Below, piece after piece: positions 8,060 to 23,069 of a stretch of DNA of 23,069 nt (its first letter is position 1; every line of letters starts with the position of its first letter). The notes beneath the pieces were generated by a model, which was not told the DNA's origin, ran no database searches, and saw nothing but the letters and a program-made list of their open reading frames with translations. The translations under genes were made by a program, and so were the position numbers. Origin of the DNA: a virus; the IMG/VR virus record IMGVR_UViG_3300020171_000714, positions 1-23,069 of that record, one strand, 5' to 3'.

Positions 8060-8567
8060 GGCGTGTCTCCTTGTTGGTTAGAGGTTGTCGGCCACCTTGT
8101 GCGGCCAGCAGTTGCTGAATCATGTCTCTTTTCTTCGCTTGGTATTTTTTGCTTGCTGCACCTATCTTGATAAGGGTCTCTGCACTGTGCTTGTGGCCTG
8201 GATGATCCGCACACCACCGCTTTCGGGACACACTCATCTTTGCGCGGGTCGTTGTAGTATGATGAGTGCCAGTCCTAGCGATGCGCATCTTGAGCAGAGC
8301 TCCCGCATCGTGCCTCCTCCCTGTGTGGTGTAGGATAGTGTGCTCTGCGTTGGACATGCACAGGAGGTTTTCAAGGTTGTCGTTCAGTGGATTGCCGTCT
8401 CGATGATGCACTACAAAACCCTCTGGCACCGGACCCTCAAACGATTCCCATATAATGTGGGACACATGATGCTGTCTACCGTTGAGTCCCACGTGCCAGT
8501 GTTCGTGGTCCACTCGCCCCCGCACTCCTTGAAGGGCTGGAACGCCGCATGTTTCCATTGTATTCAT
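7845..8567 (-). CDS. HNH homing-type endonuclease inserted between portal and scaffold genes
   Basis: Starts at 8567, three bases after the portal stop. Residues about 35-85 carry an HNH signature (HVSHIIWESFEGPVPEGFVV followed by HHRDGNPLNDNLENL and then an EH pair). Residues about 88-155 contain two NUMOD3-like DNA-binding segments (RAKMSVSRKRW; HSAETLIKIGAASKKY). Such free-standing genes nick DNA and spread by homing. The DNA here is visibly more AT-rich than both neighbours. No stop occurs before the scaffold start, so the frame runs about 215 nt into the scaffold gene. The last 70 or so residues look like a shadow of that gene (Arg/Gly/Cys/His-rich). It may have lost its own stop on insertion, and the functional protein probably ends near residue 160. 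Confidence 0.85.
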   Translation of the reverse strand: MNTMETCGVPALQGVRGRVDHEHWHVGLNGRQHHVSHIIWESFEGPVPEGFVVHHRDGNPLNDNLENLLCMSNAEHTILHHTGRRHDAGALLKMRIARTGTHHTTTTRAKMSVSRKRWCADHPGHKHSAETLIKIGAASKKYQAKKRDMIQQLLAAQGGRQPLTNKETRRDRAQHCRPESRSRHSRCTGPRCTACSRPGCGSHPQSCRPTEDLRGHGEGADADDDRGRAYPGRREVRRGG

Positions 8568-8570
8568 AAA

Positions 8571-10766
8571 TTACCTGCCTCCGGCTGAAAGTATGGCGCG
8601 CATCATATCAGGAGGCATCCCGCCGGGCATGGGCATCGAGCCGGGAACGGGGCCGGGGCCGGGCATGGGCATCGGCATCCCGCCACGGTCGCCGCCCGGA
8701 GCTATCATCGAAGCGGCGAGTTCGGGCGGCAGGCCCGCGAGATTCTCATTCGGGTTCTGCTGCGCTTCGGCTGCCTCCACGGAAGCCTGGGCCGCGTCCT
8801 CCATCGGGGGCAGCGCATTCGGGATCGCTCCCCGTAAAGCACGGACATCCTGCAATCGGGCGGCGAACTTCTGCTGGACCTCCGGGCTGGCCAGCGAGAA
8901 CTCCGGGGACGACATGCGGGCGAGCAGGACGTACTCGTGGACGGCGGGGATGTCGTAGTCGGACGAGAAGCAGGGGCCGGGCGTCTGGCCGTCGCCGAAC
9001 ATCAGGACCGAGTTGATGACGGCCCGCATGTAGTTCTGCCACTCGACCTCGTTGCCGGTGGGGAGGCCGAGATTCTCTTTTCGGTTGATGAGCCGGAACT
9101 CGCGGGCCGTGATGATGCCGCCTTTCAGCTCTTCCGCGAGCTGGCCTATCCGCTTGTCCTTGTCCACCGGCTCCTTCGAGCGGATCGTGATGACCACGTC
9201 GAACGGGTCCGGCACCGCGTTGTCCTGCAAGCTCATCTCGCCGGTGGACGGATCGAACTTCAGCCCCACAACCACGTCATCCAGCATGGAGGTCGTGTTG
9301 ACCTTCACGGACGGCCAACGCTTCGTGTTCCAGAGAATCGCCCTATACAGGTCGCCGAACATGGTGGCCAGCCCCATCGCGGGTCCGCCGAGGGAGACGG
9401 TCGAGGTCTGGTACAGGATGTCTATGCCTTTGGCCGACTCGACGCGGCCCGGAGCCCCGCCGGACATCAACTCGGTCGGCTGACCGGCCAGCTTGTCAGT
9501 GAGCTGGATTCCGAGCTGGGCGATGCGGCCCGGCAGCTCGCCGGAAGTGACGGGCTGAATGGCCTGTACGCGCGCGTCGGGCAGGGACGGGTCCGGGCGA
9601 TACGAGAATATCCGTCTGCCCGGCTTCGCTTCTTCGAGTGCATCTCGCGGGATGCCCCAGCCTTCGGGGTAGAACAGGTAGCCGAACTGGTCGAGGTCTT
9701 GGACGTTCCTGAACAGTGCCATGAACATCGACTCGACTTCGGCGTTCAGGGTCACGAGCGGCCCGACGAACGAGCGCCCGTAGAACCCCAAGCCGCCCGT
9801 GTACACGGTCTTCGAGATGGGCATGACCGGCTTCGGGCCTTCCTTCGGGCGGTCCTTCCCGTCGAAGTCCACGTCCACGATCAGGCACTTCCCGGCCATC
9901 ACGATGTAGCGCGCGAGTCTGCGGGTCTCGGACGGAACCCATATTTCAGAGAGTTGAACGTGGGCCGTCTCGGTCTTGTTCGGGGACTTCGGGGACGTGC
10001 CGCCGTGCATGGACAGCGACCGGGTGATGCTCGCGGCTATCGGGTTCGGCGCAATCGGCGCGACTGGCGAGCCATCCATCGTGACGTACTCAGGCGTGAC
10101 TTCCACGGCCATCAGGTCCGAATCCTGAACGCCCGGTAGGGTGAACTTCTTGTCCCCGACCGAGATGCCGTCCTTCAACCAGTCGTAGGAGACCCAGCGC
10201 TGGCGGACCATCCCGCGAACGGCGCTATCCGACATCGGATTAGCTGGTAAGGGAAGCAGCTCCCACGGGGGCACCACGTCTATCACATGCGATGTCTGGC
10301 CCTTTTCGCGGCCCTCACCCACCTCCCACACGCACCCGCCGACCGTCCCGTACATCGGAAGTGTCTGGCAGACTTCAAGCTTGATGGAGTCCAGCGGGAG
10401 AGCGCGAGCGGCGTTGTCGAGCAGGACGTGGGCGACCGCCGCGTTCCTGGCGGTCATCAGCCCCATGCCGCCGCGCTCGACGGACGGCCACAGGTCCAGC
10501 CGCATGAGCCGCCCGACCTCATCCGCATATCGGCGAAGGATGTCCTCGTACCGGAATGGAAGATGTCCGAATGTGTCCTCGTAGAACGCTGTAACGGACC
10601 CCGACTTGTAATCGACCGACTCGAAGAAGCGCGCTCCGCGAAGGTAATGATACGAAACGTACCACTCAATCGCAAACGGGATGCGGTATCGCTTCGAGTC
10701 CTCCATCATGCGCCACAGGACTTCGCGGAGAGTGTCGCCGTCTTTCGGGAGTTTCATAAAACTCAT
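8571..10766 (-). CDS. Portal protein
   Basis: A 731-residue protein. The ATG at 10766 is chosen over an in-frame GTG at 10826 because GGAGG lies nine bases before it and the ATG overlaps the stop of the microprotein (ATGA). The portal forms the ring through which TerL pumps DNA. Supporting evidence is position directly after TerL, length similar to large podovirus-type portals, and typical segments. These include an N-terminal helical region (WRMMEDSKRYRIPFAIEWYVSYHYLRG), a wing region with DVVPPWELLPLPANP near residues 165-185, and a long section with GRSFVGPLVTLNAEVESMF and LGIQLTDKLAGQPTELMSGG (stem and clip region). The C-terminal 70 residues are Pro/Met/Gly-rich and probably disordered (MPMPGPGPVPGSMPMPGG). 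The 400-residue frame on the opposite strand is a shadow. Confidence 0.85.
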   Translation of the reverse strand: MSFMKLPKDGDTLREVLWRMMEDSKRYRIPFAIEWYVSYHYLRGARFFESVDYKSGSVTAFYEDTFGHLPFRYEDILRRYADEVGRLMRLDLWPSVERGGMGLMTARNAAVAHVLLDNAARALPLDSIKLEVCQTLPMYGTVGGCVWEVGEGREKGQTSHVIDVVPPWELLPLPANPMSDSAVRGMVRQRWVSYDWLKDGISVGDKKFTLPGVQDSDLMAVEVTPEYVTMDGSPVAPIAPNPIAASITRSLSMHGGTSPKSPNKTETAHVQLSEIWVPSETRRLARYIVMAGKCLIVDVDFDGKDRPKEGPKPVMPISKTVYTGGLGFYGRSFVGPLVTLNAEVESMFMALFRNVQDLDQFGYLFYPEGWGIPRDALEEAKPGRRIFSYRPDPSLPDARVQAIQPVTSGELPGRIAQLGIQLTDKLAGQPTELMSGGAPGRVESAKGIDILYQTSTVSLGGPAMGLATMFGDLYRAILWNTKRWPSVKVNTTSMLDDVVVGLKFDPSTGEMSLQDNAVPDPFDVVITIRSKEPVDKDKRIGQLAEELKGGIITAREFRLINRKENLGLPTGNEVEWQNYMRAVINSVLMFGDGQTPGPCFSSDYDIPAVHEYVLLARMSSPEFSLASPEVQQKFAARLQDVRALRGAIPNALPPMEDAAQASVEAAEAQQNPNENLAGLPPELAASMIAPGGDRGGMPMPMPGPGPVPGSMPMPGGMPPDMMRAILSAGGR

Positions 10767-10852
10767 GGCTTGAATCCTCCGTGTGGCGGCCTGTCGCCGA
10801 AGACCACCCACAGGAATATCGCGCACACCACTATGACGATCAAGTACGTCAT
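10763..10852 (-). CDS. 29-residue single-pass membrane microprotein between TerL and portal genes
   Basis: A 30-codon reading frame fits exactly between two head genes. Its ATG (10850-10852) overlaps the TerL stop as ATGA, with GAGG six bases upstream inside the TerL gene. Its TGA stop (10763-10765) overlaps the portal ATG as ATGA. The protein begins MTYLIVIVVCAIFLWVVFGD and continues with a Pro/His/Gly-containing polar tail. Residues 4-18 are a hydrophobic segment long enough for one membrane pass. The double stop-start overlap is strong evidence that it is translated. The function is unknown: a holin-like or membrane-docking peptide is possible, or a coupling peptide whose main role is to carry ribosomes from TerL to the portal start. 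Confidence 0.7.
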   Translation of the reverse strand: MTYLIVIVVCAIFLWVVFGDRPPHGGFKP

Positions 10853-12795
10853 CTTTGCCTCATTCGGGCGGCAGGTGGTCGGTGAACGCCGGGAAGCTGA
10901 ACGCGCCCGCCAGTGACCGGCGTGTACAGCGTATCGGTGCCTGCTCGATTATACCGCTCGCGGGTACTGTGAAGCGAGGAAAATCGGCTGCGGGCAGCCG
11001 TGGATTTCTGGAGCTCCTCGCGCCGGACCATGAACTTCTGGAAGACCTCCAGCGGCACCCGCGAGACATCCAGGCCCGCGAGTATCGGAAGGCCGGTCTG
11101 CGGGTCGGTCGTCTGCCCGTCCGCCAGAAGGTCAAGCACGTCCTTCGCCAGTCCTTCGGGATAAGCGTCCACGTCCCCTGTCGCGTAGACGCGCGGGACG
11201 TAGGGGACCATCGCCAGCATGTCAAGCGCGTCGTCGTGCGGCAGGGACAATCCATCCGGCGTGAACAGGTTGAACTCCCGCCACAGCTCGGACCACGGGA
11301 ATCCAGCGTTCCTGGTCTTCGCGGGGAGCCGGATTCTGCCGCCCGAAGCACGAGGAGCAAGCGCCGTTATGCGGTCTTCCTTCGACAGCGCGTGCGGATA
11401 ACGAATAGGCCAGACAGCTCGCGGGCTCCAGATGGCCGCTGGGTTCTCGTTCTTCATTCGAGACTCAAGCCACTGGCGGAAGTAGTCCTGGCCCCCGACC
11501 GACTCGATGCCGACGAGCGAGGGCTGCCAGCGGACGCCCATCTGCCACACCTCGGACATCAGCCGCTCAGCGGCGCATCGTCCAAGAAAGAGATCGAGCA
11601 CCCACCAGGCGTTGTCCTTGTCGATGCCAACACACATCGCGCCGCTGAAGTCCGATATAGCGGACACGCGGTGCAGGAGGTCAACGATGATGAGCTTGCC
11701 GAGCCCGTTGAGCCACTGGGCATAGGGCTCGGTGTGTCGCTCGGCGTCTTCGGGGTTGACGGATGAGGGAGTGTGCCACGTGACAGCATCGGCGGCATCG
11801 GAGACCTCGTAGGTGTTGAACAGCGGGTGAAGGTTGAAAATGCGTTCCTTGTCGGAGATGGGGTTGCCCTGCATCTCGGCCTCGAACGCGATGTCGCCGA
11901 GTTCCTTGCGGCGGACATCCAGCCAGCCGGAGTCCCACTTCTCCGGCCAGAACAGAAGCGAGTGGCCCGCTTCGTCTGTTCGGGCGGCAGAGAACACCCG
12001 GCGGTTGTAGAACTCGAAGCGGGGGTCTTGGCCGGAGATCGCCCCGTACAGGGCCGAGCGGCAGTTGATGAGGGTGCCCACCCACTCGAATATCTGATCG
12101 TCGGAGTCCAACATCGGGATAATCTGACTGAACAGCAGGGAGTCGAGCTGGTCCCGCAGGATGGTCTCCGAGCCGGGCTTCTTCGGGTCGTACTCCGGGT
12201 CGTCGAGTATCACGAAGTCGGGGCGAGCGCCTCGCTTTCGGGAATCAACGGATGTGAGCCTGAGCATCGAGCCGTTGAGAAGCTGCATCATGGACAGGGA
12301 CCACTTGCGTCCCGTGGACTTCGGGGGCTTGAGCTGGCCGAAGTCGTCAACGATGTACTTGTTCTCGTCAAGGGCCTGCTGGAGCTGGGTGCCGCGAAGC
12401 TCGGCCTGCTCCTTCGCGGAGAGCACGAGCATCCCGACCGAGAACGGCCACGTCAGCGACAGCAGCAGCGGAATCTCAAGCCCGATCACCGTGGACTTGG
12501 CCGAGCCCCGTGGAGCGACGTGGATGTTGCGGCCATACTCGCCCATGTCACGGACCATCACGTAGTGGGCCGGAGGTGACGGCAGCTTCCGCTTGTAGAA
12601 GACGCCCTCCGGCAGCGGGTCCAGATAGGTCGAGCGGAAGAATAGCCACGAGTTCACGAAGTCCTGGGCAGTCGCTCTCTGGCAGCAGGCATTGATGCGA
12701 GCCAGCCGTTGCCCCTCTTTCGAGAGGGTGGGGTAATCAGGCGGCAAGGGAGCCCAGCGATTGCCCTCTCGTGGGATCGCTCGGACGGTCGGCAT
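10849..12795 (-). CDS. terL: Large terminase subunit (DNA packaging ATPase and nuclease)
   Basis: Powers DNA packaging and cuts concatemers. The frame is open from 12879, but the ATG at 12795 is preferred because it follows the previous stop (12812) by 16 bases; that gives 648 residues. From this start, Walker A is APRGSAKST near residues 94-102. Walker B is VILDD near 195-199, followed by PEYDPKKPGS. The C-terminal nuclease half shows a first acidic residue in GAMCVGIDKDNAWWVLDL, then LVGIESVGGQDYF, and a final HDDALDMLAM, matching the RNase H-like fold of terminases. The C-terminal 60 residues are basic. Its stop overlaps the microprotein start. The gene contains two copies of the repeated 12-mer inside it and one at its 3' end. 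Confidence 0.95.
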   Translation of the reverse strand: MPTVRAIPREGNRWAPLPPDYPTLSKEGQRLARINACCQRATAQDFVNSWLFFRSTYLDPLPEGVFYKRKLPSPPAHYVMVRDMGEYGRNIHVAPRGSAKSTVIGLEIPLLLSLTWPFSVGMLVLSAKEQAELRGTQLQQALDENKYIVDDFGQLKPPKSTGRKWSLSMMQLLNGSMLRLTSVDSRKRGARPDFVILDDPEYDPKKPGSETILRDQLDSLLFSQIIPMLDSDDQIFEWVGTLINCRSALYGAISGQDPRFEFYNRRVFSAARTDEAGHSLLFWPEKWDSGWLDVRRKELGDIAFEAEMQGNPISDKERIFNLHPLFNTYEVSDAADAVTWHTPSSVNPEDAERHTEPYAQWLNGLGKLIIVDLLHRVSAISDFSGAMCVGIDKDNAWWVLDLFLGRCAAERLMSEVWQMGVRWQPSLVGIESVGGQDYFRQWLESRMKNENPAAIWSPRAVWPIRYPHALSKEDRITALAPRASGGRIRLPAKTRNAGFPWSELWREFNLFTPDGLSLPHDDALDMLAMVPYVPRVYATGDVDAYPEGLAKDVLDLLADGQTTDPQTGLPILAGLDVSRVPLEVFQKFMVRREELQKSTAARSRFSSLHSTRERYNRAGTDTLYTPVTGGRVQLPGVHRPPAARMRQR

Positions 12796-12811
12796 GGACT
12801 TGGGTCCAACA

Positions 12812-13546
12812 CTAGCCAGTGGGAGTCTCCGTCTTCGCTTGTTCGGGCGGCAGAATGACGGGGGGCGCGAGTGGGCCACCCGGAGTGCCGGGGGCCGGAA
12901 CGGGGACCACCTGCATCCCCTGGGCGAACAGCGAGTAGACGATCAGGGACAGCACGAAGGAAGCGGTGTCGGCGGACCTGTTCAAGTCGATGGTGGCAGG
13001 CTTGACGCCCATGCCGTTCAGCAGCACGGCAGTCATGGCGACGATGCGCGGACCCTGCGAGTTGGCGATGAACTCGGTGAGCTTCAAGAGCTCGTCATGG
13101 CTTTCCCGTGGCCACATCGACAGGGGCTTCATCCCCTTCATGGACGACACGGCGTTCAGTGTCCGTAACACCCGCCGCCTGTCCATCTTCTTCCACCACT
13201 CCGGGGCCTGCGGTGCGGGCGGCTTCGGCTCCGGGGACAGGTTCCCCTCCGGCGGAAACGGGAGCTGGGGTTGTGGGGGTAAGGGGGCCGTCAACGGCTC
13301 GGCGGACGGAGAGGAGGCCGGAGAGGAAGGGGTTGGAGTCGGGGCCGGTGGTGATGGCGACTCCGGTGGGAGCACGAACGGGAGGACGCGCTGGCGGCTC
13401 TCGGACGGACTCGAACGGGGTGCCACGGAAGGTGGTGCGGCCACGGGGTCCACCGGCGAGACCGGAGGAGGCGCGCTGGGTGGGGGCGGCGTGATGAGAG
13501 CCCTCTTCGTCAGCGGTAGGGGCTTCGGGCGGGGTGTCGTTTCCAT
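12812..13546 (-). CDS. Unknown protein with Pro-rich N-terminus, upstream of TerL
   Basis: A 244-residue protein with GGAG eight bases before the ATG at 13546. Residues 1-118 are dominated by Pro, Ser and Ala, with almost no hydrophobic core. From residue 119 it becomes ordered (WWKKMDRRRVLRTLNAVSSM, ESHDELLKLTEFIANSQGPRIVAMTAVLLNGMG). A hydrophobic stretch SFVLSLIVYSLFAQGMQVV near residues 192-210 could be a buried or membrane helix. The Pro-rich part lies entirely within the 3' part of the preceding gene in another frame, an overlap of 452 nt. The ordered part is mostly free of overlap. I do not recognise the family. Position before TerL would suit a terminase partner or packaging accessory factor. 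Confidence 0.65.
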   Translation of the reverse strand: METTPRPKPLPLTKRALITPPPPSAPPPVSPVDPVAAPPSVAPRSSPSESRQRVLPFVLPPESPSPPAPTPTPSSPASSPSAEPLTAPLPPQPQLPFPPEGNLSPEPKPPAPQAPEWWKKMDRRRVLRTLNAVSSMKGMKPLSMWPRESHDELLKLTEFIANSQGPRIVAMTAVLLNGMGVKPATIDLNRSADTASFVLSLIVYSLFAQGMQVVPVPAPGTPGGPLAPPVILPPEQAKTETPTG

Positions 13547-14054
13547 CGGTGCTCTCCTGTAATAGGGGTTGTGAAGGGCCGGGTGAGTTCATGCGGCGGA
13601 CGACGGTGGCCATCCGCTCGACGGTGATCGTGCCATCTTCCGCCTGGACGGTGACGCGGGACGACATGGGGGCGATGTCCCCGTGGAGCAGCATGGCTTT
13701 GTTGGCCAGCTCGTGGAGGGACTTCGCGGCCATCATCCGAATACGAGGATCGAACGCGTCGTCCTTGGCGATGTCGGTGTACAGACGAACTTCGGCGAGC
13801 ACGGTCCACTCGCCAGCCGAAAAGCCCTGCTCGATCATGGTCGGGTTGATGAACGAGCGGAGCGAGGGCAGCGAGTCTTCCAGGGTCGCCAAGTCGCCGA
13901 ACGAGTCTCCTAAGCCGTCGGGCGGGTAGGCTGGGTCCGCCTCCGCGAGTTGAGAGCGGATTGGAAGGCCCTGATTCACGACAAGCGACAGGGCCTCCGA
14001 AGCGGACGGTCGAACGCGGTGGACGGCGGCCAGCGGAGTATCGGGTTCACTCAT
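13095..14054 (-). CDS. Unknown protein of the packaging module
   Basis: A 319-residue protein starting at 14054, overlapping the previous stop by ATGA. Residues about 15-160 are an ordered alpha-helical region. They include DSLPSLRSFINPTMIEQGFS, TVLAEVRLYTDIAKDD, RIRMMAAKSLHELANKAMLL and a short strand pair SRVTVQAEDGTITVERMA. The second half (from about residue 170) is low-complexity, rich in Pro, Ala, Gly, Glu and Arg, and overlaps the next gene by 452 nt in a different frame. A helical bundle followed by a disordered tail and its position upstream of TerL would fit a small terminase or related adaptor, but no motif confirms this. The frame has no earlier stop, so the overlap is real unless there is a sequence error. 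Confidence 0.65.
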   Translation of the reverse strand: MSEPDTPLAAVHRVRPSASEALSLVVNQGLPIRSQLAEADPAYPPDGLGDSFGDLATLEDSLPSLRSFINPTMIEQGFSAGEWTVLAEVRLYTDIAKDDAFDPRIRMMAAKSLHELANKAMLLHGDIAPMSSRVTVQAEDGTITVERMATVVRRMNSPGPSQPLLQESTDGNDTPPEAPTADEEGSHHAAPTQRASSGLAGGPRGRTTFRGTPFESVREPPARPPVRAPTGVAITTGPDSNPFLSGLLSVRRAVDGPLTPTTPAPVSAGGEPVPGAEAARTAGPGVVEEDGQAAGVTDTERRVVHEGDEAPVDVATGKP

Positions 14055-14814: not shown

Positions 14815-15888
14815 ATGATGGAGTTCAAGCCAGTGTTGGAGCGTATGTCTGATGTGAAGGAGAGGCGACCGGAGTGGTTGTGGCGGGGACGGTTCCCGCT
14901 CGCGGCCTTCTCGATGATTGTGGGAGACCCAGAACAGGGGAAGAGCTTGCTGACGAAAAGGATTGCGGCCCACGTGACGACAGGGGCGAATTGGCCGGAT
15001 GGATCGCCCTGCCCGAAAGGGAGCGTGATTATCATTACGAGCGAGGAAACATCGGACGTGGAACTGGCTCCTCGATTGAGGGTGGCGGGTGCGGACCTGA
15101 CGAAAGTGATGAGGCTCAGGGGATTCGAGCCAGTGCAGGGGGGAGACGTGAATCCGATAGACATGACCAGAGCGTGCTTGGAGATGGTGGAAGAAGCGGT
15201 TAGAGGAATGGGGGACGTGAAGTTGGTGATCGTGGACCCTATCTCGGCGTTCATGGGGCCGGACACGAACTGCAACACGAACGAGCAGGTGAGGATAGTG
15301 CTGGGGGCAGTATCTACTTTGGCGGAGACATACGGGGTGGCGATCATAGGGATCAACCACCTGAGCAAGAACGCGGACAGGGCGGCGTTGGCTCGGAGCC
15401 TTGGGAGCACGGGGTTTGTGGCGCACGCGCGGGCGGTGTGGTTTGTGGGCCGCGATCCGAGGGCACCGGCGGAAGGGGACGACGGGGGCCGGAAGTGCCT
15501 TGTGAGGGGGAAGAACAACTGGGCGAAGTACGTGGATGCACTTGCGTTTACGATCATGTCTGCACCGGCTCCTGATGGCGAAATCCCCGTGATCGCGTGG
15601 GGGGAGGTATTCAAGACGACGGACAACGCGGTGCTGGGGACGAGCCTTGTGGGGATGGGCAGCAGGGGACGGCCTCCAGCCAAACGGCAAAACGCGGAAG
15701 CGTGGTTGGCCGAGACACTGAAAGAGGGAAGTGCCTTGGCACTGGTGGTGGAGGAGGCGGCTGAGGAGGCGGGAATCAGCATACGAACGCTGGCCAGGGC
15801 GAAGAAGGACTTGGGGGTTGCGTCGGTGAAGGGGGTGGACGGGTGGAGGTGGGAAATGCCAAAAGAGGGGGCAAGGGCGCCAGAATGA
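14815..15888 (+). CDS. RepA-like AAA/RecA-fold ATPase (replicative helicase type)
   Basis: A 357-residue protein. Walker A is GDPEQGKS (residues 37-44), preceded by the strand AAFSMIV. The acidic strand SVIIITSEET follows near residues 70-79. Walker B is KLVIVDP followed by ISAFMG near residues 135-146, then IIGINHLSK with a polar residue after the strand (near 176-184). This is the order of AAA_25/RepA-like hexameric ATPases of plasmids and phages. The last 70 residues look like a winged helix (LVVEEAAEEAGISIRTLARAKKDLGVASV, then a W-rich wing), a DNA-binding tail often seen on these proteins. ATG 14815 is used; ATG 14818 has better spacing from the weak GGTGA at 14806. Adjacent iteron-like repeats support a role in replication initiation or as loader/helicase. 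Codons are G-ending with AGG arginines, unlike the head genes. Confidence 0.85.
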   Translation: MMEFKPVLERMSDVKERRPEWLWRGRFPLAAFSMIVGDPEQGKSLLTKRIAAHVTTGANWPDGSPCPKGSVIIITSEETSDVELAPRLRVAGADLTKVMRLRGFEPVQGGDVNPIDMTRACLEMVEEAVRGMGDVKLVIVDPISAFMGPDTNCNTNEQVRIVLGAVSTLAETYGVAIIGINHLSKNADRAALARSLGSTGFVAHARAVWFVGRDPRAPAEGDDGGRKCLVRGKNNWAKYVDALAFTIMSAPAPDGEIPVIAWGEVFKTTDNAVLGTSLVGMGSRGRPPAKRQNAEAWLAETLKEGSALALVVEEAAEEAGISIRTLARAKKDLGVASVKGVDGWRWEMPKEGARAPE

Positions 15889-16060
15889 AAAGAAGAGTGC
15901 CATAATGCCAGAAGTGGCAAGGGTGCCTGGGGGCGGGAGAATATGGCATTATTATTATTACCCTGTCAAACCCGCTCCCGGCGGGGTCAAGGGTGCCATA
16001 TGTCCCGGTCCCCAGGGGGGGGTCAAAAACGCGACGATTTAGGGCAAGAGTGCCAGAAAG
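15872..16060 (+). other. Candidate replication origin with iteron-like repeats
   Basis: Directly after (and slightly into) the RepA-like gene, the word CAAGRGYGCCA recurs: CAAGGGCGCCA at 15872, GAAGAGTGCCA at 15892, CAAGGGTGCCT at 15918, CAAGGGTGCCA at 15988 and CAAGAGTGCCA at 16045. A copy of the core lies in reverse at 15941-15952 (ATATGGCATTAT). ATAATGCCA (15902-15910) and TGGCATTAT (15944-15952) form a perfect 9-bp inverted repeat. TGCCA-GAAG-TGGCA (15906-15919) is a small hairpin. An AT-only run (15948-15960) could be the melting site. The spacing is irregular (20, 26, 70 and 57 bp), so the origin call is a hypothesis. The stretch has no gene of its own between 15889 and 16071. Confidence 0.5.
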
Positions 16061-16071
16061 AGACGTGAAAT

Positions 16072-16320
16072 ATGGCCGGGATGAAAATGACGGTGGCGGA
16101 GCACTTGAGGCTGGGGCTGATCCTCCAAGCGGTCCATCAGACGGTTCAACACGAGCTACTCGTTCCGCTGAACACATACCCGAAGGGGTCTAAGGCGGCA
16201 CGAGACTGCCATCGCTTGGGGCGGGCCTTCGTTGAGTTGCGGTGTGAAATGGACAAGGTGGCCTGTCGAGACCACCCGGAGGAGTTCGACGTGAAGTGGT
16301 ACTATCCGGGTTTAGGGTAG
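16072..16320 (+). CDS. Small hypothetical protein downstream of the origin-like region
   Basis: An 82-residue protein starting at 16072 with an AAAGAGA-type site about eight bases upstream; Met4 is an alternative start. It is helical and charged: residues 4-35 (KMTVAEHLRLGLILQAVHQTVQHELLV) form a probable amphipathic helix. A second helix spans about 42-63 (SKAARDCHRLGRAFVELRCEMD), with a terminal DVKWYYPGLG. No membrane segment. I do not recognise a family. As the second gene of the rightward unit it may assist the RepA-like protein, but this is position only. No terminator was found after it. Confidence 0.7.
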   Translation: MAGMKMTVAEHLRLGLILQAVHQTVQHELLVPLNTYPKGSKAARDCHRLGRAFVELRCEMDKVACRDHPEEFDVKWYYPGLG

Positions 16321-16538
16321 CAGCCGGGGGATGTCAAGGGGTAAGCCACGTCTATGCAACCAAAAGGCGGGTGGACTCATGTGTGTAAGTCCTGGGAAGC
16401 GGGCAATTTACGGGGGCCGGGAAAATCGAAGGAGAGTCAAGTATCACATAACTCGGAGCTCCCTGGGGGGACATAGGGGTGGGTCTGGCTTAGAAAAGGA
16501 CACACGGACACACAGACATCCATACATCTATACAGAAT

Positions 16539-16615
16539 GAAAGGACAAGAGACTATCCCTTATAACAGCAAGAGATACAGAAGAAACAACAGACCGAAAG
16601 GATAAGAGACTATCC
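16539..16615. repeat. Direct repeat GAAAGGAYAAGAGACTATCC
   Basis: Two 20-bp copies, 16539-16558 and 16596-16615, differ at one base (C or T at the eighth position) and are 57 bp apart, in non-coding DNA. They could be protein-binding sites or remnants of a duplication. Confidence 0.75.
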
Positions 16616-16663
16616 GGATGGCGCGGCGCGGGACGGCGGCCCCGCGCTCCACGGCCGCTCGCC

Positions 16664-16733
16664 AATAGAATACAACTTACCCATCTTATCGTGCTTCGAA
16701 TAGAATACAACTCGTACATCTTACCACGCTTAC
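16664..16733. repeat. Tandem 35-bp repeat beginning AATAGAATACAACT
   Basis: Units at 16664-16698 and 16699-16733 share 14 identical first bases, then CATCTTA at the same offset and a GCTT near the end. On the minus strand each unit offers TAAGATG and TTGTATTC boxes, which could be operators or weak promoter elements pointing left. Confidence 0.65.
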
Positions 16734-16858
16734 CCTGGTCCCTCACGCCCACCGTCCATTCCCTTGCTACCCCGATCCGGCCGCGCTCGCGCTTCCCCTT
16801 GTCATATCGCTTTCCCTCTACATGATACCCGCTATCACATCGCTTCCCCTCCGCGCAT

Positions 16859-16885
16859 AAAAAGACCGTATCCCGTGATACGGTC
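16859..16885 (-). terminator. Intrinsic terminator of the leftward operon
   Basis: On the minus strand, GACCGTATC (16877-16885), a 4-nt loop, GATACGGTC (16864-16872) and then TTTTT (16859-16863). The 9-bp stem is perfect. It lies 36 bases past the stop of the last leftward gene (16921), so it ends the operon that enters from the right edge. Confidence 0.85.
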
Positions 16886-16920
16886 CTGCAGCGCCCTTTT
16901 CTACGTCCTTCGGCGCGCTT

Positions 16921-17169
16921 CTATATGTTCTGTGCCTGTTCTCTGCTGCGCCGCGCGCGCCCTGCCAACATATCCAAAACCTGTTCCGCCCGGCTCGTGT
17001 ATGACACGCTCCCCGCGATTGTCTTTCCCCGTCGTATTGCTCCCGCGCGTCCCACAAACCAGAAGGCCCCGGACGGATCGCGGAATCGTCGATACTTCCG
17101 TGACGCCCCCGGTTCTTCTACGGCGTTCGCGTCTATCAGCGCTCTAGCGATTTCTTCCTGCCTTGCCAT
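16921..17169 (-). CDS. Small hypothetical protein, last gene of the leftward operon
   Basis: An 82-residue protein with AAGGAG six bases before the ATG at 17169. The N-terminal helix is acidic (MARQEEIARALIDANAVEEP). It is followed by a compact basic beta region RKYRRFRDPSGAFWFVGRAGAIRRGKT (residues about 24-50) and a C-terminal helix with RAEQVLDMLAGRARRSREQAQ. The FxDPxGxFWFVGxxGAxRxGKT pattern looks like a small nucleic-acid-binding or strand-rich fold, but I do not recognise the family. It is followed by the terminator and separated from the HTH gene by a perfect inverted repeat. Confidence 0.75.
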   Translation of the reverse strand: MARQEEIARALIDANAVEEPGASRKYRRFRDPSGAFWFVGRAGAIRRGKTIAGSVSYTSRAEQVLDMLAGRARRSREQAQNI

Positions 17170-17189
17170 GCCCAGCTCCTTGTAGTTGC

Positions 17190-17222
17190 GGGAAGCGCTG
17201 TTAGTTACCTCCAGCGCTTCCC
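17190..17222. repeat. Perfect 11-bp inverted repeat between two genes
   Basis: GGGAAGCGCTG (17190-17200) and CAGCGCTTCCC (17212-17222) flank an 11-nt spacer, filling most of the 61-bp gap upstream of the 82-residue gene's ribosome-binding site. There is no T-run, so it is more likely an operator for a dimeric DNA-binding protein or an mRNA-processing or stabilising hairpin. Confidence 0.8.
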
Positions 17223-18090: not shown

Positions 18091-18323
18091 GATCCTATCT
18101 CCTGTCTGTTGCCTGTCGTTAGTCCGCCGGAACATCCGGCAGGTCCTATCGACCTGTATTCATTGTAACGAATACCAAGTGTCCACGTGCGATTATCTTC
18201 GCGTCCCCTATCCCACCCAAACCGCGCATCTTCCGCCGCTTTCCTTGCGCTGTCCAAACCACCCATATTCCGCTCCCCAACCGCTCCCGAATCCGTTGCG
18301 CTCCCCATTTCGTAAATCCCCAT
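18042..18323 (-). CDS. Small hypothetical protein coupled to the Cys-rich gene
   Basis: A 93-residue frame whose ATG (18321-18323) overlaps the stop of the Cys-rich gene as TAATG. A textbook GGAGGTG sits ten bases upstream, inside that gene. The first 60 residues look protein-like (MGIYEMGSATDSGAVGERNM, then LDSARKAAEDARFGWDRGRE). The last third crosses three RNA hairpins and overlaps the next gene by 49 nt, and its composition (Arg/Thr/Gly) is less convincing. Start evidence is strong and coding evidence for the C-terminus is weak. No family recognised. Confidence 0.5.
   Translation of the reverse strand: MGIYEMGSATDSGAVGERNMGGLDSARKAAEDARFGWDRGREDNRTWTLGIRYNEYRSIGPAGCSGGLTTGNRQEIGSCRRTEDRLRSRTGTR
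18126..18175 (-). promoter_or_regulatory. Three abutting perfect hairpins upstream of a gene start
   Basis: GCCGGA-aca-TCCGGC (18126-18140), CAGGTC-ctatc-GACCTG (18140-18156) and GTATTC-attgtaac-GAATAC (18156-18175) follow one another, each sharing its boundary base with the next. They end 36 bases before the ATG at 18090. They may form a structured leader or protein-binding array for the downstream gene, although they also lie in the preceding 93-codon frame. Confidence 0.5.
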
Positions 18324-18514
18324 TAGCTTTTCACCTCCACTCGTCTCCTAACGAACCGCTTGCACTCCGCCGCAGGATCACCAGCCCAGGCACAGCAGTC
18401 GTCCGCGCACTCCTCCACCCACATTGGCAGAGGCACACCACACTCACCCCTCCCGCTGCTCTCCTCGATCCGCACAAAGTACTTGCACTCGCCGCACGTC
18501 TTTGTCGCTTCCAT
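18323..18514 (-). CDS. Small Cys-rich protein, probable metal binder
   Basis: A 63-residue protein. The second in-frame ATG (18514) is used because AAGGAG lies seven bases before it but only one base before the ATG at 18520. The pattern is CGECKYF near the start, GECGVP near residue 24, CADDCCAW near 37-44, and ECKRF near 51. That is seven Cys residues in a short protein with few hydrophobic residues, which suggests a zinc- or iron-sulphur-stabilised fold. Similar CxxCxxF...C...C small proteins are common in phage early regions, mostly without known function. It is translationally coupled to the next gene by TAATG. Confidence 0.75.
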   Translation of the reverse strand: MEATKTCGECKYFVRIEESSGRGECGVPLPMWVEECADDCCAWAGDPAAECKRFVRRRVEVKS

Positions 18515-18568
18515 GTCCATTCTCCTTCTCGCTGTGCTGGCCTATCCACTCTCTGCCGCCCGATGACT

Positions 18569-19543
18569 CTACGCCATCCTCCTTCTCCTGATCGCTTCCT
18601 CCGCTGCTATCGCTGCTCTCATTCCTAATTGGTCCTCTTCGACGCCCAGCCACCCGCTCAGCCACCTGGGAGCATATACTCCTATCTCTATTTCCAACTC
18701 TCTCCTCCAGAGACGCGCCGCCGCCCCTCTCGGTGGCTGGCTCAACCGCTGGCGCTGCCGCTCCTTGTGTTGCCTGTACGCTGCGTCCCACCGATCCAAC
18801 ACCCCGTGCTCCACAGCGAACAGGTACACTTGCGCCACCATGTCCGCCTCGTCCACGAGCAGCGTGCACAACTCCACCTCCTGTTGCTCCGCTTGCGCGG
18901 ACGCCTCCATCTTGAACAAGTCAAGGCGTCTACTAGTGCTGCTCATCACCTCTCCAAGCCTACACTCTTGTTCCATCGAGAGTGCCCCCACTGCCGCTCC
19001 CTCGACGTGCTCCAAGTCCTTCGCCGTCAGCCGCGCTTTAGCGGTATTTCTATCCTTACTCTGCCACACACATCTGCTGCACCTCCACCCCCGCCGTATC
19101 TCACCGCGCCCCCCCTGCTCGCCCTGTATCGTATTCCTGTACTGCGCGTACAACTCCCAATCTGACACAACTCCCACGTCCACCTTCCCTTGGGCCACAA
19201 TCCACTGTTCATCCTCCCGCACCCACTCGTATCCCGTCGGAACAGGCACGTCCGCTGGCACTCCCGCCATCCACATCCCTAACTCCCCTGACGGCGCATC
19301 CACCGGCCCGCGCTTCCACTTCCACGCGGCTTCTACTGCATCTAGCCACACATCGGCCGCCGTCCACTGGTCACATGATGCCCACCCACCACCTAGCACC
19401 CGGGAAGTGTCCTCGTGCGTAGCTGGACCACCAAATCCGCTGAACTCAGTGCGGGCAAACACCCTCCCACCGTAACCGCCTTCCGTAGACCATGACGCCG
19501 TAACCACCATCTTGGCTCCGCCCGTGCTTTCAGCACCTATCAT
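18569..19543 (-). CDS. Unknown 324-residue protein of the E1/JAMM operon
   Basis: The ATG at 19543 is chosen because it overlaps the previous stop (ATGA) and has AAGGAAG six bases upstream, although the frame is open to 19609. The N-terminal 150 residues are Gly/Trp-rich and beta-like, with many Trp (WLDAVEAAWKWKRGPVD, GYEWVREDEQWIVAQG). A CSRC pair at about residues 155-158 (WRCSRCVWQSKDRN) could bind metal. From about 175 on it is helical and charged (LGEVMSSTSRRLDLFKMEAS, EQQEVELCTLLVDEADMVAQ, DAAYRQHKERQRQRL), ending in AAIAAEEAIRRRRMA. I do not recognise the family. Tight coupling to the JAMM and E1 genes suggests a shared process. Confidence 0.8.
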   Translation of the reverse strand: MIGAESTGGAKMVVTASWSTEGGYGGRVFARTEFSGFGGPATHEDTSRVLGGGWASCDQWTAADVWLDAVEAAWKWKRGPVDAPSGELGMWMAGVPADVPVPTGYEWVREDEQWIVAQGKVDVGVVSDWELYAQYRNTIQGEQGGRGEIRRGWRCSRCVWQSKDRNTAKARLTAKDLEHVEGAAVGALSMEQECRLGEVMSSTSRRLDLFKMEASAQAEQQEVELCTLLVDEADMVAQVYLFAVEHGVLDRWDAAYRQHKERQRQRLSQPPRGAAARLWRRELEIEIGVYAPRWLSGWLGVEEDQLGMRAAIAAEEAIRRRRMA

Positions 19544-20751
19544 GTCCCACTTCCTTTCGCCACCCCGTCCCACAGTTCCAATCCGCCGCCCTTCGCTGCC
19601 GGTAGCCACTTCCCGCTATTCACCGCGAACTCCACCACTTCCCTATCGGCTTCCCTCGCCACCACCACCACTCTCCTGGCTTCCACCAACCACTCTTCGC
19701 ACGCCCACGCCGGGCTTGCTCCTCCCTCGACGCTTCTGTTAGCCGCCGCCCCCATCGCTTGCACCACCCACTCATTCCACGCTCCCCCCACCTCCGCTAT
19801 CCATGCACCCGATTCTGTCAAGTCCAGATTGCTCGCACCGCTCAGGCTAACTCCCGCTCCGTACATCAGTGGACTCAACTCTTTCGGGATATTCTCTCGC
19901 AGCACCCCGCGCCCGTAGTTCCCACACTTCGACAGCTGATCCCCATTCAGCAGCGGCTGCGCTGCCCCTCTCGATCCCGTGATAGACCACTGGGGCACCG
20001 CCACACACCCCGCTTTCGCCAGACGCGCCCACTCCGCCAGCGCCTCCCTGCTCGGCAGCCACACGGCCACCCGCTCACTCGGTGCAGGCTCAACATTCCC
20101 CCCCCCACCCACCCGCCACGGCCCTATCCGCTTGCCTCGGCCCAGCGCTATCCCCGTGGATGTCATTGCCTCCCACACGGCCGCTCTTATCGCCACCCTC
20201 CTTCCCTTCTCCCCCACGCTCCCCACGACTTCCAGCCCTGTCCGCTTTCGCGCTTCCGCGTGACTTATCTCCGCCGTCCGCACCCCAGCCTCTACCGCTT
20301 CCCGCAGCACATCCCTCTCGGCCCCACTTGCTCCTTCCCACATCCGCACCGCACCTTCCCAATTGATCGTCCTAGCTGACACTACCTCCTCCATGTCCAA
20401 CTCTCTAACCCCCTCCGCTTCCAGCAGCCCCAGGACTCCCTCATCATCCCTCCCGCCAACCACCAGCCCGCTTCCAGCCCAGCGGCCCCCCTTCATCACT
20501 ACCCCAACCACGTCCACGAGCACCGGCGGAATGTTCCTCCGCTCCTCCCCGCTTGCCTTGTGCACAATCCTCATGTACGCGCTTGGACTCTCGAACTCCC
20601 CGCTCACTCTCCACCCAGGCACACACTCCATGCCTGCCACCCACATCGCTTCCTCCAACGTCCATCTTTGCCACCCCGCACGAGCTTCCGGTCCTTTGGC
20701 ACTCGCTAGAATACCTCGCTTCGCTGCCACTTGCCACTCTGTCATGGTCAT
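19540..20751 (-). CDS. Unknown 403-residue protein of the E1/JAMM operon
   Basis: Starts at 20751 with AAAGGAG seven bases upstream, overlapping the JAMM gene stop as ATGA. It is rich in Val, Gly, Glu and Trp. Segments that look ordered include LVDVVGVVMKGGRWAGSGLV (residues about 78-97), a helical part with REAVEAGVRTAEISHAEARK, and AVWEAMTSTG. Later come REALAEWARLAKAGCVAVPQ and SPLMYGAGVSLSGASN. Four Cys residues are scattered. No nucleotide-binding, nuclease or membrane motif is visible. It could be a conjugation partner such as an E2-like protein or a target, but nothing in the sequence shows a catalytic centre. The family is not recognised. Confidence 0.8.
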   Translation of the reverse strand: MTMTEWQVAAKRGILASAKGPEARAGWQRWTLEEAMWVAGMECVPGWRVSGEFESPSAYMRIVHKASGEERRNIPPVLVDVVGVVMKGGRWAGSGLVVGGRDDEGVLGLLEAEGVRELDMEEVVSARTINWEGAVRMWEGASGAERDVLREAVEAGVRTAEISHAEARKRTGLEVVGSVGEKGRRVAIRAAVWEAMTSTGIALGRGKRIGPWRVGGGGNVEPAPSERVAVWLPSREALAEWARLAKAGCVAVPQWSITGSRGAAQPLLNGDQLSKCGNYGRGVLRENIPKELSPLMYGAGVSLSGASNLDLTESGAWIAEVGGAWNEWVVQAMGAAANRSVEGGASPAWACEEWLVEARRVVVVAREADREVVEFAVNSGKWLPAAKGGGLELWDGVAKGSGT

Positions 20752-22265
20752 GGTCCGACTCCTTTCACGTTATCCCACGCTCCCCCATCGCTTATCACGC
20801 CCAGGAACGCATCCAACTCATCCTCCATCCCTTCCAGCACTTGCTTGATCACGGCTTGCCCAACTGCCGCTATCGTCTCCCCGCGCTTTATCCTCTGTCT
20901 CGCGCTCCTGAGCTCGCTCGCCACATCCCTTAGCACTCCCCTCTCCCGATCCATCTCCTCCGCCACCCCCAACAGTCGCGCCATCACCTTCAACTCCTCA
21001 ACACTGTGCTCCCCCGCTTTCTCCTTCCCCTTCTTGGCCCGCTTCCGCTGCTTCTTCGTCATCCCTGGTTCGTCATCCATCACCATACTCCCATCCTTCA
21101 TCCTCCGATACCACACCCCATCCCGAAGCACTAACACATTCGTCCCTTCTTCCCTTTCCGCTCCAAACCCAAACCACCGCCGCCGCCCGAACAACCGCCC
21201 TTCGTACTCGCCGTACACCACCGGCACCGGCCTCGTAATCAACTCGCCGATCTTCTTCGTCCTCCCATCTTCTCCCACCAGCTCACACTCGTCGTCACCC
21301 GCCTTCACCACCCCCGGCGCGTCCACGTCCACGCTTGTCGCCCGCCAGCAGTTCCCGACCCCCATCACCGACACATACACATTCGCTGTCCCACCCTCGC
21401 GTGGCTGTACGATATGCACCCCCGGCGACTTGCTCCACTGGATCAAGTCCACCCCGCTGCACTCTTTCATCTTATTCGGATGGAAGTGCCAATTCGTTCC
21501 GATCCACTCCGCTTCCATCTCCACGCACCTTTCCAGGCACTTTCCCCCGTCCTCCACGTCCACGATTGCGCTCGTCGCTTCCTGCTTCGGCACTACCCCT
21601 ATCCACTTCCATCGGGCGGCAGAGCTCTCGCTGGCTGCCGCGATCAACTTCCTGCACACCCTAATCTCCGCCTCCCCGTCGCACTCCTTCAGCATATCCT
21701 CCTTCCACCGCTTGAGTACTCCCGCTGGCGGCAATCTACTCTCGTCCCACTTCACCAACTGCGCTTCGAGTTCCTTATGCTCCGCTCCCGTCCCGTACAC
21801 GAGCTTCCGCACGGCTGCCAAGTCCGCTGGCACCTCGGCCTCCACGCTGCCCTTCGCCACCCTCCACACTCGCAGGTCCGGCAGCACGCTCATCTTCACC
21901 CCATTCACCGTGAACTCCGCGAGCGCTGCCCTGCCACTGTACTCGAACTTCGGCACGGCCGGGAGGAGGGATACAGTGGAACCGGATTGCTGCCCGTAGG
22001 CTTCCCGACTATACTGGTACGTCATCGCTCCCGGATCATCGTAGATTCCACCCAGCACTTCCTGCACCGCTTCCATGTCCGTCTCCCACGCGGACCTGCT
22101 GCGGCCCACGCCCGAACTCCGATGTGCCTGTTCGGTCTGACTGGCTTCATCCTTCCGCTTGTTCTCCTCCCACCAGTCGATGAACCGCTTGTCCGTCCCC
22201 CTGCACTCCCTGTGGAACTGCTCCCACACGCTCTCGAACTCCCTGTTGTCGTACACTCCGCTCAT
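20748..22265 (-). CDS. JAMM/JAB1-MPN metalloprotease-like protein
   Basis: A 505-residue protein starting at 22265, ATGA-overlapping the 63-residue gene and with AAGGAA upstream. Residues 260-273 read HFHPNKMKECSGVD: the JAMM zinc signature H-x-H-x10-D with the usual Pro after the second His and the S-x-x-D ending. The preceding strands (WKWIGVVPKQ, AIVDVE, AEWIGTNW) match the JAB core. JAMM enzymes cleave ubiquitin-like conjugates or precursors. The usual catalytic Glu before the I-G of the first strand seems replaced by Lys220, so activity is uncertain. The N-terminal 200 residues and the C-terminal part (beta region, then a Lys-rich linker MTKKQRKRAKKGKEK and a coiled helix to the end) are unassigned. 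The neighbouring E1-like gene supports the call. Confidence 0.75.
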   Translation of the reverse strand: MSGVYDNREFESVWEQFHRECRGTDKRFIDWWEENKRKDEASQTEQAHRSSGVGRSRSAWETDMEAVQEVLGGIYDDPGAMTYQYSREAYGQQSGSTVSLLPAVPKFEYSGRAALAEFTVNGVKMSVLPDLRVWRVAKGSVEAEVPADLAAVRKLVYGTGAEHKELEAQLVKWDESRLPPAGVLKRWKEDMLKECDGEAEIRVCRKLIAAASESSAARWKWIGVVPKQEATSAIVDVEDGGKCLERCVEMEAEWIGTNWHFHPNKMKECSGVDLIQWSKSPGVHIVQPREGGTANVYVSVMGVGNCWRATSVDVDAPGVVKAGDDECELVGEDGRTKKIGELITRPVPVVYGEYEGRLFGRRRWFGFGAEREEGTNVLVLRDGVWYRRMKDGSMVMDDEPGMTKKQRKRAKKGKEKAGEHSVEELKVMARLLGVAEEMDRERGVLRDVASELRSARQRIKRGETIAAVGQAVIKQVLEGMEDELDAFLGVISDGGAWDNVKGVGP

Positions 22266-22453
22266 GTTTTCTTTCCTTTCACTCTAGAGTACCGCTTCAT
22301 CTCAGCGCGGTAGAACTCCACCAGTTGCGACATCCCTGCCAGCTCTGCTTCATTCTCCGCGTGCGCCCACGCGATCCGCTTTGGATCGCCGCTCGTCAAC
22401 GCGGCGTGCACTTTCCGGTCATGGCTCGACCACTGGCTTCCAGGAAATGGCAT
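22262..22453 (-). CDS. 63-residue helical protein between E1 and JAMM genes
   Basis: The ATG at 22453 lies one base after the stop of the E1-like gene, with AGAGGAG six bases upstream; its own stop overlaps the JAMM start (ATGA). The sequence is polar and helical (WSSHDRKVHAALTSGDPKRI, WAHAENEAELAGMSQLVEFY) with a basic end RAEMKRYSRVKGKKT. It lacks the beta-grasp pattern and Gly-Gly tail expected of a ubiquitin-like modifier, so it is probably not the modifier. It could be an accessory or a substrate. Function unknown. Confidence 0.75.
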   Translation of the reverse strand: MPFPGSQWSSHDRKVHAALTSGDPKRIAWAHAENEAELAGMSQLVEFYRAEMKRYSRVKGKKT

Positions 22454-22454
22454 G

Positions 22455-23069
22455 TTATGCTCCTCTGAATGGCCGATACACTCGGCAGTTTCCCTTGTTA
22501 TCCATCACCCACCCCCACTCGGCATACGTCCCGGCTGTCGCTTCCATCAAGTCTCTCAGCGTGCTGACCACACACACCGCCGTCAACTGATTCCCGACTG
22601 AGTGCTGCTCAGCCACCGCCAGATTCCTCGCGCAGTGCCCACCCGGAATCCTTCCCGCTTCCGCTTCCTTCTTCGCTTCCTCCCACACGGACTCCTGCCA
22701 CATGGCCACGTCCGGCTGCGCCTCCTCGGCCTCATACACTCCACCATACGCTTCCCCGCTCTCCATCCCGTTGCTTCCCGCGACCACCACCACCCGGCCA
22801 CGATGCCCAGCTGCCATCGCCGCTGCCACGGTGTCGAACACGAACACCCGCGCCAACTGGTTGTCCGGCACCACAATAAACACCACTTCCCTGTATCCCT
22901 TGAGTAGCGACTCCCCATCATACCACCTATCCTCAATAGTCATGCACACCGCCTCCTGTTCGCCTCCTCGAAGACACATTTGGCGCACCAGAGTTATTGC
23001 CTCATCCGCTTTGTCGGCTCCTACTACTCCCCAAGCTTGTCGCTCCCTGTTCCGCGCTTCCATCCTATC
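22455..23069 (-). CDS. ThiF/E1-like ubiquitin-activating-type enzyme, partial (N-terminus off the window)
   Basis: Open from the right edge to a stop at 22455; the Met codon at 23063 is internal, because DR precedes it and the family motif continues upstream. The visible order matches the ThiF/E1 adenylation fold. It starts DRMEARNRERQ (family D-x-V-E-x-x-N-L-x-R-Q), then GADKADEAI (the G-x-x-K-A helix). VVFIVVPDNQLARV follows (the D-N-x-x-x-R motif), then a strand with RVVVVAGSNG and EAYGGVY, and a late helix HSVGNQLTAVCVVSTL. The G-x-G-G-x-G ATP loop should lie upstream of the window. Cys144 in GGHCARN is a candidate thiol. E1-like enzymes adenylate the C-terminus of a ubiquitin-like or sulphur-carrier protein. 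Pairing with a JAMM gene supports the conjugation type. Confidence 0.75.
   Translation of the reverse strand, partial: DRMEARNRERQAWGVVGADKADEAITLVRQMCLRGGEQEAVCMTIEDRWYDGESLLKGYREVVFIVVPDNQLARVFVFDTVAAAMAAGHRGRVVVVAGSNGMESGEAYGGVYEAEEAQPDVAMWQESVWEEAKKEAEAGRIPGGHCARNLAVAEQHSVGNQLTAVCVVSTLRDLMEATAGTYAEWGWVMDNKGNCRVYRPFRGA

Follow-up and report, generated by a model that had tools for sequence, protein, structure and literature searches.

Bacterial ubiquitin-like (Ubl) systems are known mainly as anti-phage defences, and the pairing of an E1 activating enzyme with a JAB (JAMM) peptidase recurs in CBASS type II (Cap2/Cap3), Bil, Bub and PRTRC. The occurrence of JAB with Ubl proteins in lambda-type tail clusters, and of E1/E2/JAB operons in bacteria, was described by Iyer et al. 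2006 (PMC1779556). A literature search, which left aside most subscription journals and all preprints, turned up no account of complete Ubl modules carried by phages. Here, a five-gene operon at the right end of a viral fragment from an uncultivated phage (IMG/VR record IMGVR_UViG_3300020171_000714, 23,069 bases, hereafter the window) was analyzed. We assign a probability of about 0.62 to the reading that these genes are what has been sequenced of a Ubl system carried by the phage. Most likely the operon belongs to a rapidly evolving phage system, distant kin of PRTRC-type modules, in which a modifier is activated and deconjugated.

All five genes lie on the minus strand. The first one encodes an E1/ThiF-like adenylyltransferase (22455-23069) whose 5′ part is cut by the contig edge, leaving an open frame of 204 residues. 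It is followed by genes for a 63-residue orphan protein (22262-22453), a 505-residue JAMM/JAB-domain protein (20748-22265), a 403-residue orphan (19540-20751) and a 324-residue orphan (18569-19543), the last being the final gene of the overlapping block. At three junctions the genes overlap by ATGA; at the fourth they are separated by a single base. Shine-Dalgarno-like AGGAG/AAAGGA runs are located directly upstream of the starts at 22453, 22265, 20751 and 19543; the open reading frame (ORF) of the 324-residue protein has an alternative GTG start at 19609, the ribosome-binding site belonging to the ATG at 19543. Codon-position GC and G content fit minus-strand coding, and ORFs on the opposite strand at the operon do not fit. 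Coordinates and junctions are as the earlier note had given them, and overlaps, coding composition and Shine-Dalgarno-like runs together bear out a single operon of five genes. Immediately downstream of the operon, at 18323-18520, there is a Cys-rich 65-residue ORF (CGECKYF...CADDCCAW) that is zinc-finger-like.

The truncated first gene contains the ThiF/E1 motif series reported earlier (D-R-M-E-x-x-N-R-x-R-Q, G-x-D-K-A and V-P-D-N-x-x-A-R). The 204-residue fragment found no match in Pfam, NCBIfam or PHROGs and did not reach the gathering score (annotation threshold) of PF00899; its best-conserved N-terminal part is missing, and it lacks the ATP-binding loop (GxGGxG) because the contig stops there, at 23069. 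Since no library recognizes the fragment, phage ThiF proteins were sought by another route, a tblastn search of E. coli MoeB against phages, which pointed to a JAB-ThiF operon in crAss-like phages. In hmmsearch, a ThiF profile from phage JAB loci selected the E1 fragment among 156 window ORFs at E 4.6e-4 (12.9 bits; runner-up at 1.4), with a score that none of 5000 shuffles reached. Alignment of the fragment with the phage ThiF profile by hhalign gave E 3.5e-4 over 143 co-linear columns, at a probability of just 37%. Six positions downstream of the cut are invariant in 24/24 relatives (Asp1, Asn7, Lys20, Asp69, Arg74 and Cys146), and all are retained in the fragment; C146, at 22632-22634, is the candidate catalytic cysteine. 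Profile matches and conserved residues thus establish E1/ThiF homology, and the gene at 22455-23069 is, judged from its sequence, a divergent E1/ThiF enzyme.

The 505-residue protein carries the JAMM motif WHFHPNKMKECSGVD (21447-21491; H260, H262, S270 and D273), identified by DNA pattern and JAB alignment, within a domain spanning residues 177-304 (21354-21737). Extensions of about 175 residues on the N-terminal side and about 200 residues on the C-terminal side are of unassigned nature. The H-x-H-x10-D signature that the earlier note called perfect is present, but in this bare form it is moderately informative: it occurs in 107 of 20,000 shuffles of the protein and also in an opposite-strand ORF at 6192-6935 (plus strand). 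The full signature H-x-H-P-x6-[ST]-G-x-D was seen in none of the 20,000 shuffles. Residues H260, H262, S270, G271 and D273 occupy invariant columns in an alignment of 21 JABs.

When the protein was compared by phmmer with 6476 ORFs from fetched loci (L-numbers denote such loci, taken from IMG/VR and phage records), two matches besides itself were obtained at E<1. Both are JABs, from L018 (E 0.0068, residues 177-304) and L127 (E 0.46). A profile of 11 PRTRC-type JABs recognized the protein with E 5.8e-4 among window ORFs (next 5.1) and 0.024 over the 6476 ORFs. Its score was reached by 0/5000 shuffles, and 7.0 of 12.9 bits were left after masking the motif. A JAB profile built solely from the HSHHxM phage family did not recognize it, and the JAB models of Pfam and NCBIfam, used with their annotation thresholds, gave no match at E≤1. 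In PADLOC, an independent library of defence proteins, six models matched, every one of them a JAB (E 0.003-0.035, best 0.0029). An alignment-guided AlphaFold (AF2) model of residues 110-330, built with 20 relatives, had a mean predicted local distance difference test score (pLDDT) of 60 and a predicted template modelling score of 0.55. It matched JAMM/MPN proteins at Foldseek E<1e-3 (Sst2/AMSH 3e-7), with VIA-align Z scores of 12.9 for AMSH, 12.8 for PfJAMM1, 10.7 for Cap3 and 10.5 for BubCD; in this structure search the absence of other folds is no evidence against those folds. The alignment-guided model thus shows the JAB fold that the earlier note expected, and profile, phmmer, PADLOC and signature agree on JAMM/JAB homology; the protein holds a JAMM/JAB domain at residues ~177-304. 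As a separate possibility, the motif was considered as an E2 site (HPN...C). This was rejected, as the His-Cys spacing is 7 compared to 9-10 and E2 profiles were unsupportive (hhalign E 0.13).

The DNA pattern W-H-x-H-P-N-x5-[ST]-G-x-D has one match in the window and is found in three contigs among 2.9 million of IMG/VR, in each case inside a JAB-like protein of an apparent phage tail cluster. This resemblance would suit a virion-processing peptidase of the type of lambda tail protein K, next to a ThiF-like gene unrelated to it. We regard such an arrangement as highly improbable: the window JAB adjoins an E1, with the structural genes far off, an NlpC/P60 partner was not recognized, and in phmmer the L018 JAB (0.0068) comes ahead of the tail JAB (0.46).

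The matches to PADLOC, confined to JAB models, and the similarity of the JAB model to Cap3 and BubCD speak for a counter-defence set. In such a set the JAB would strip Ubl conjugates made by the host's Bil, CBASS Cap2 or Bub off proteins of phage or host; the E1-like protein would act as a decoy or as a remover of free Ubl. A decoy would not need the six invariant residues that the E1 retains, and relatives have Ubl-like and E2-like genes of their own, making this alternative very unlikely.

In a tree, the E1 fragment was placed among PRTRC-side sequences beside L018 (support 86/86), the JAB and ThiF of L018 match PRTRC_A and PRTRC_ThiF below cut-off, and it is the PRTRC-type JAB profile that recognizes the 505-residue protein. 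These affinities would also be produced by a PRTRC-like plasmid or phage module diverged beyond recognition, with E1, JAB, E2-like protein and Ubl doing PRTRC's job and the 403- and 324-residue proteins being diverged PRTRC subunits. However, the window proteins match no PRTRC model at E≤1, an E2 profile of PRTRC_B type has no match in the window, the gene order is different and the long E1 branch leaves the placement unsure; we therefore consider this version unlikely.

Complete modules are found in relatives. At least 120 stretches of IMG/VR matched a DNA pattern for the crAss-like JAMM motif, HSH[HN]xMxxFxSGxD. Among 122 JAB ORFs (the IMG/VR matches listed plus two crAss-like records), a ThiF ORF was present in 107 loci, mostly adjacent to and overlapping the JAB gene. 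Ubl-like, E2-like, JAB and E1 genes occur together in at least 53 loci, many of them beside replication genes. Two flavours were distinguished. The crAss-like one consists of a Ubl-like protein, an E2-like protein (HSHx...CLG), JAB and ThiF. The one from small environmental phages consists of a 70-90-residue protein, a 450-600-residue protein with an E2-like motif, JAB and ThiF, followed, by inspection, by genes for a recombinase-like ATPase, an SSB-like protein and a primase-helicase. Examples among the IMG/VR loci L005-L124 are L111:2407-5225, L112:9392-9616 and L005:713-4368. In one cluster of Ubl-like proteins a Gly-Gly close to the C-terminus, with 0-8 residues after it, is invariant (13/13 aligned). 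A subset of the E2-like 450-600-residue proteins has an invariant HPH...PCxG (10/10 aligned), with three weak PDB hits, two of which are E2s (E about 1). The Ubl assignment of the relatives found no confirmation in profile searches against PDB sequences; beta-grasp and E2 assignments in these loci are based on motifs, length and position.

The L018 module (IMGVR_UViG_3300016665_000872, 9890-13617) contains a Ubl-like 95-residue protein ending in ESKG, a JAB that is the closest relative found to the window JAMM protein (with sister JABs in L039 and L122), a 383-residue protein with NQICWG that is possibly E2-like, and ThiF. PRTRC-like systems are present in two sequenced phages. Vibrio phage D69 (L211, 2259-6816) encodes an E2-like protein (PRTRC_B, E 0.006), a JAB (PRTRC_A, 4e-20), a protein in which three Ubl-like repeats stand in tandem (ending around GTKG) and an E1 relative, the annotated gene of which, at 6061-6816, lacks the ATP loop. 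Salmonella phage Arash (L213, 375-4539) encodes an E2-like protein, a JAB and an E1 (PRTRC_ThiF, 7e-15). Arash gp246-gp249 are among 116 phage-particle proteins detected by mass spectrometry (PMC10585845). The genes therefore appear to be expressed; because so many proteins were detected, the place of these products in the virion is uncertain.

ThiF and JAB are also paired in bacterial operons for sulfur transfer or peptide activation (Iyer et al. 2006, PMC1779556). In a pathway of this kind a ThiF/MoeB-like enzyme would form a carrier thiocarboxylate, the JAB would free the carrier from a precursor, and the product would modify tRNA, a cofactor or a small molecule. Since no rhodanese, sulfurtransferase or metabolic gene was recognized in the window, and related phage modules have E2-like proteins with invariant PCxG that sulfur transfer does not need, we judge it to be improbable.

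The three remaining proteins of the operon resemble nothing in these modules. The 63-, 403- and 324-residue proteins had no match in Pfam, NCBIfam, PHROGs, PDB sequences, PADLOC or the ORFs of the fetched loci, and they were not found by phage Ubl-like, E2-like or PRTRC-type E2-like profiles. They are thus, as had been remarked before, unlike the usual members of the named bacterial systems. Profile searches of all five proteins against ThiF, JAB, E2 and Ubl, which the earlier note had suggested, returned ThiF for the E1 and JAB for the 505-residue protein, but nothing for the other three. The 63-residue protein is probably helical by sequence inspection; it is not Ubl-like and has no Gly-Gly end. 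It is conceivable, but doubtful, that the 403-, 324- and 63-residue proteins are new Ubl pathway components, such as a transfer factor replacing E2, an E3-like adaptor or dedicated substrates. If so, this phage lineage would run a conjugation system of an architecture unseen in bacteria, plasmids and other phages.

Close relatives of the operon were not obtained. Searches of Pfam, NCBIfam, PHROGs and PDB sequences with the operon proteins gave nothing meaningful. In tblastn against phages and plasmids the E1 had no match and the JAMM protein had two plasmid matches at chance level. For the JAMM protein and the E1, and likewise for the AAA protein and the terminase of the window, peptide-pattern scans of IMG/VR revealed no close relative, and a scan of 85,000 genomes revealed none for the E1. 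A genome scan derived from the L018 JAB alignment found nothing with the chosen patterns, which were weak. A terminase profile scan retrieved 80 phages, each just 22-30% identical, none of which has a relative of the orphan proteins.

By analogy, the operon most likely works like PRTRC, CBASS and Bil. A small Ubl, whose existence we infer, would be adenylated by the E1 at its C-terminal glycine and held as a thioester on C146. The JAMM protein, as a putative zinc protease, would trim the Ubl precursor and/or remove Ubl from targets; H260, H262 and D273 would bind its zinc ion, and E200 is a candidate for the catalytic Glu. The most likely place for the genes of the Ubl, and of an E2 if any, is beyond the contig edge, upstream of the truncated E1, because such genes are located upstream of E1 in the closest relatives that are complete (L018, PRTRC-type loci and phage modules). 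The 63-, 403- and 324-residue proteins, probably co-expressed, would be substrates, adaptors or new transfer factors. Since related modules adjoin helicase, recombinase-like and SSB-like genes, replication/recombination proteins are proposed as the target; our guess is that these are, most likely, phage or host replication proteins. A counter-defence role is possible.

Several observations weigh against the proposal of a phage-borne Ubl system. Of the conjugation system put forward by the earlier note, E1 and JAMM homology within one operon is supported, but no Ubl-like modifier or E2 is recognizable in the 23 kb fragment, the contig of which is cut inside the E1. The gene order is ThiF, 63-residue protein, JAB, whereas JAB directly precedes ThiF in almost every locus. 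With 4.57 changes per site, the branch of the E1 in the tree is extremely long, which makes the placement weak and means that the enzymes could be repurposed or decaying. In the JAMM protein, F261 is found at motif position 2, between the histidines, where Ser/Thr is usual, and in a MAFFT alignment Arg202, not Glu200, occupies the catalytic-Glu column, E200 being two residues off. The single-sequence AlphaFold fold of the 505-residue protein had a pLDDT of 39, and the JAB fold model is supporting evidence and no independent proof, because the alignment of relatives guided it.

The rest of the window is that of a phage. The terminase large subunit gene (10849-12879; PHROG 38, E 2e-53) and an AAA/helicase-like gene (14815-15888, plus strand; PF13481, E 1e-30) resemble those of module-bearing phages (E 7.9e-20 and 3.7e-7, respectively). 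Large proteins are encoded at the portal and capsid positions, which were assigned by size and order only. At 7845-8567, between the portal-position gene and a 333-residue gene, there is an HNH-type endonuclease-like ORF (VHHRDGNPLNDNLENL) whose frame extends 215 bases into the following gene, as if its own end had been lost. A 1104-residue repetitive protein rich in Thr/Ala/Gly (1980-5294) is probably a tail fibre or spike. At 12812-14054, two minus-strand ORFs (244 and 319 residues) overlap by ~450 bases in different frames, one overlapping part being very proline-rich; dual coding or a mis-called start is possible. The region 15900-17200, with a GC dip to 0.56, a GC skew reversal near 16 kb, a switch of gene direction and direct-repeat pairs at 16532-16615 and 16664-16731, looks like a replication origin or control region.

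Compared with known systems, the E1 and JAB fall far below curated family cut-offs, so that, by the definitions of PRTRC, CBASS and Bil, neither belongs to any of them. The pairing of E1 with JAMM, which had suggested these systems, is real, but membership is not borne out: NCBIfam gives nothing at E≤1 and PADLOC weak JAB matches alone. The operon cannot be assigned to any of the three, since either the defining models tested find no match or part of the cluster is missing. In contrast to lambda-K-type tail JABs, the window JAB neighbours an E1 and orphan genes, with recognized structural genes kilobases away and no recognized NlpC/P60 partner. The fold of the alignment-guided model is that of AMSH/Sst2 and Rpn11 (AMSH Z 12.9, Foldseek Sst2 3e-7), and the SGVD segment presumably resembles that of Rpn11, while identity is ~14-21%, F replaces S/T inside HxH and the protein is viral. 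CBASS type II, Bil and Bub have a work-alike E1 and JAB peptidase, and Cap3 and BubCD are among the fold matches; however, the sequences are distant and no CD-NTase, E1-E2 fusion or defence effector was recognized in the window. The operon proteins have no match to the PADLOC E1-E2 (Cap2) model, the rest of the cluster being beyond the contig, nor do the Bil/Bub Ubl, E2 and E1 models of NCBIfam or PADLOC match them, the cluster being incomplete.

PRTRC (PRTRC_A TIGR03735, PRTRC_ThiF TIGR03736, PRTRC_B TIGR03737) has the same pairing of E1 and JAB, and the window E1 lies, with weak placement, on its side of the tree. It differs in gene order and partners, in that none of the five window proteins has any NCBIfam match at E≤1, and in that no Ubl or E2 (PRTRC_B profile) match is found in the window, where the contig is cut inside the E1. 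The modules of crAss-like phages (e.g. MT774392, crAss001) and small environmental phages (e.g. L111, L005) are likewise phage-borne, with an E1 adjoining a JAB in an overlapping operon and with related terminase and AAA/helicase genes. In them, unlike in the window with its three orphans and no recognizable Ubl or E2, JAB nearly always precedes ThiF, and E2-like and Ubl-like genes lie ahead of both. The L018-type module differs in order (Ubl-JAB-383 residues-ThiF vs ThiF-63-JAB-403-324), and its 383-residue protein has no detectable relation to the 403- or 324-residue proteins. It shares with the window a long N-terminal part of the JAB, the VPKQ strand and HxH...SGxD, the ThiF elements DxxxxxxN...RQ, VDN..TR and GGC, and ORF overlaps. 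Phages with their own activating enzyme and deconjugating peptidase, often with modifier-like and E2-like genes, turn the question to what the phage modifies and why, and widespread relatives (crAss-like gut phages, Vibrio phage D69 and the cultured Salmonella phage Arash) make that question testable. Among these systems the window operon represents a divergent edge of the family, a place where new pathway components may turn up.

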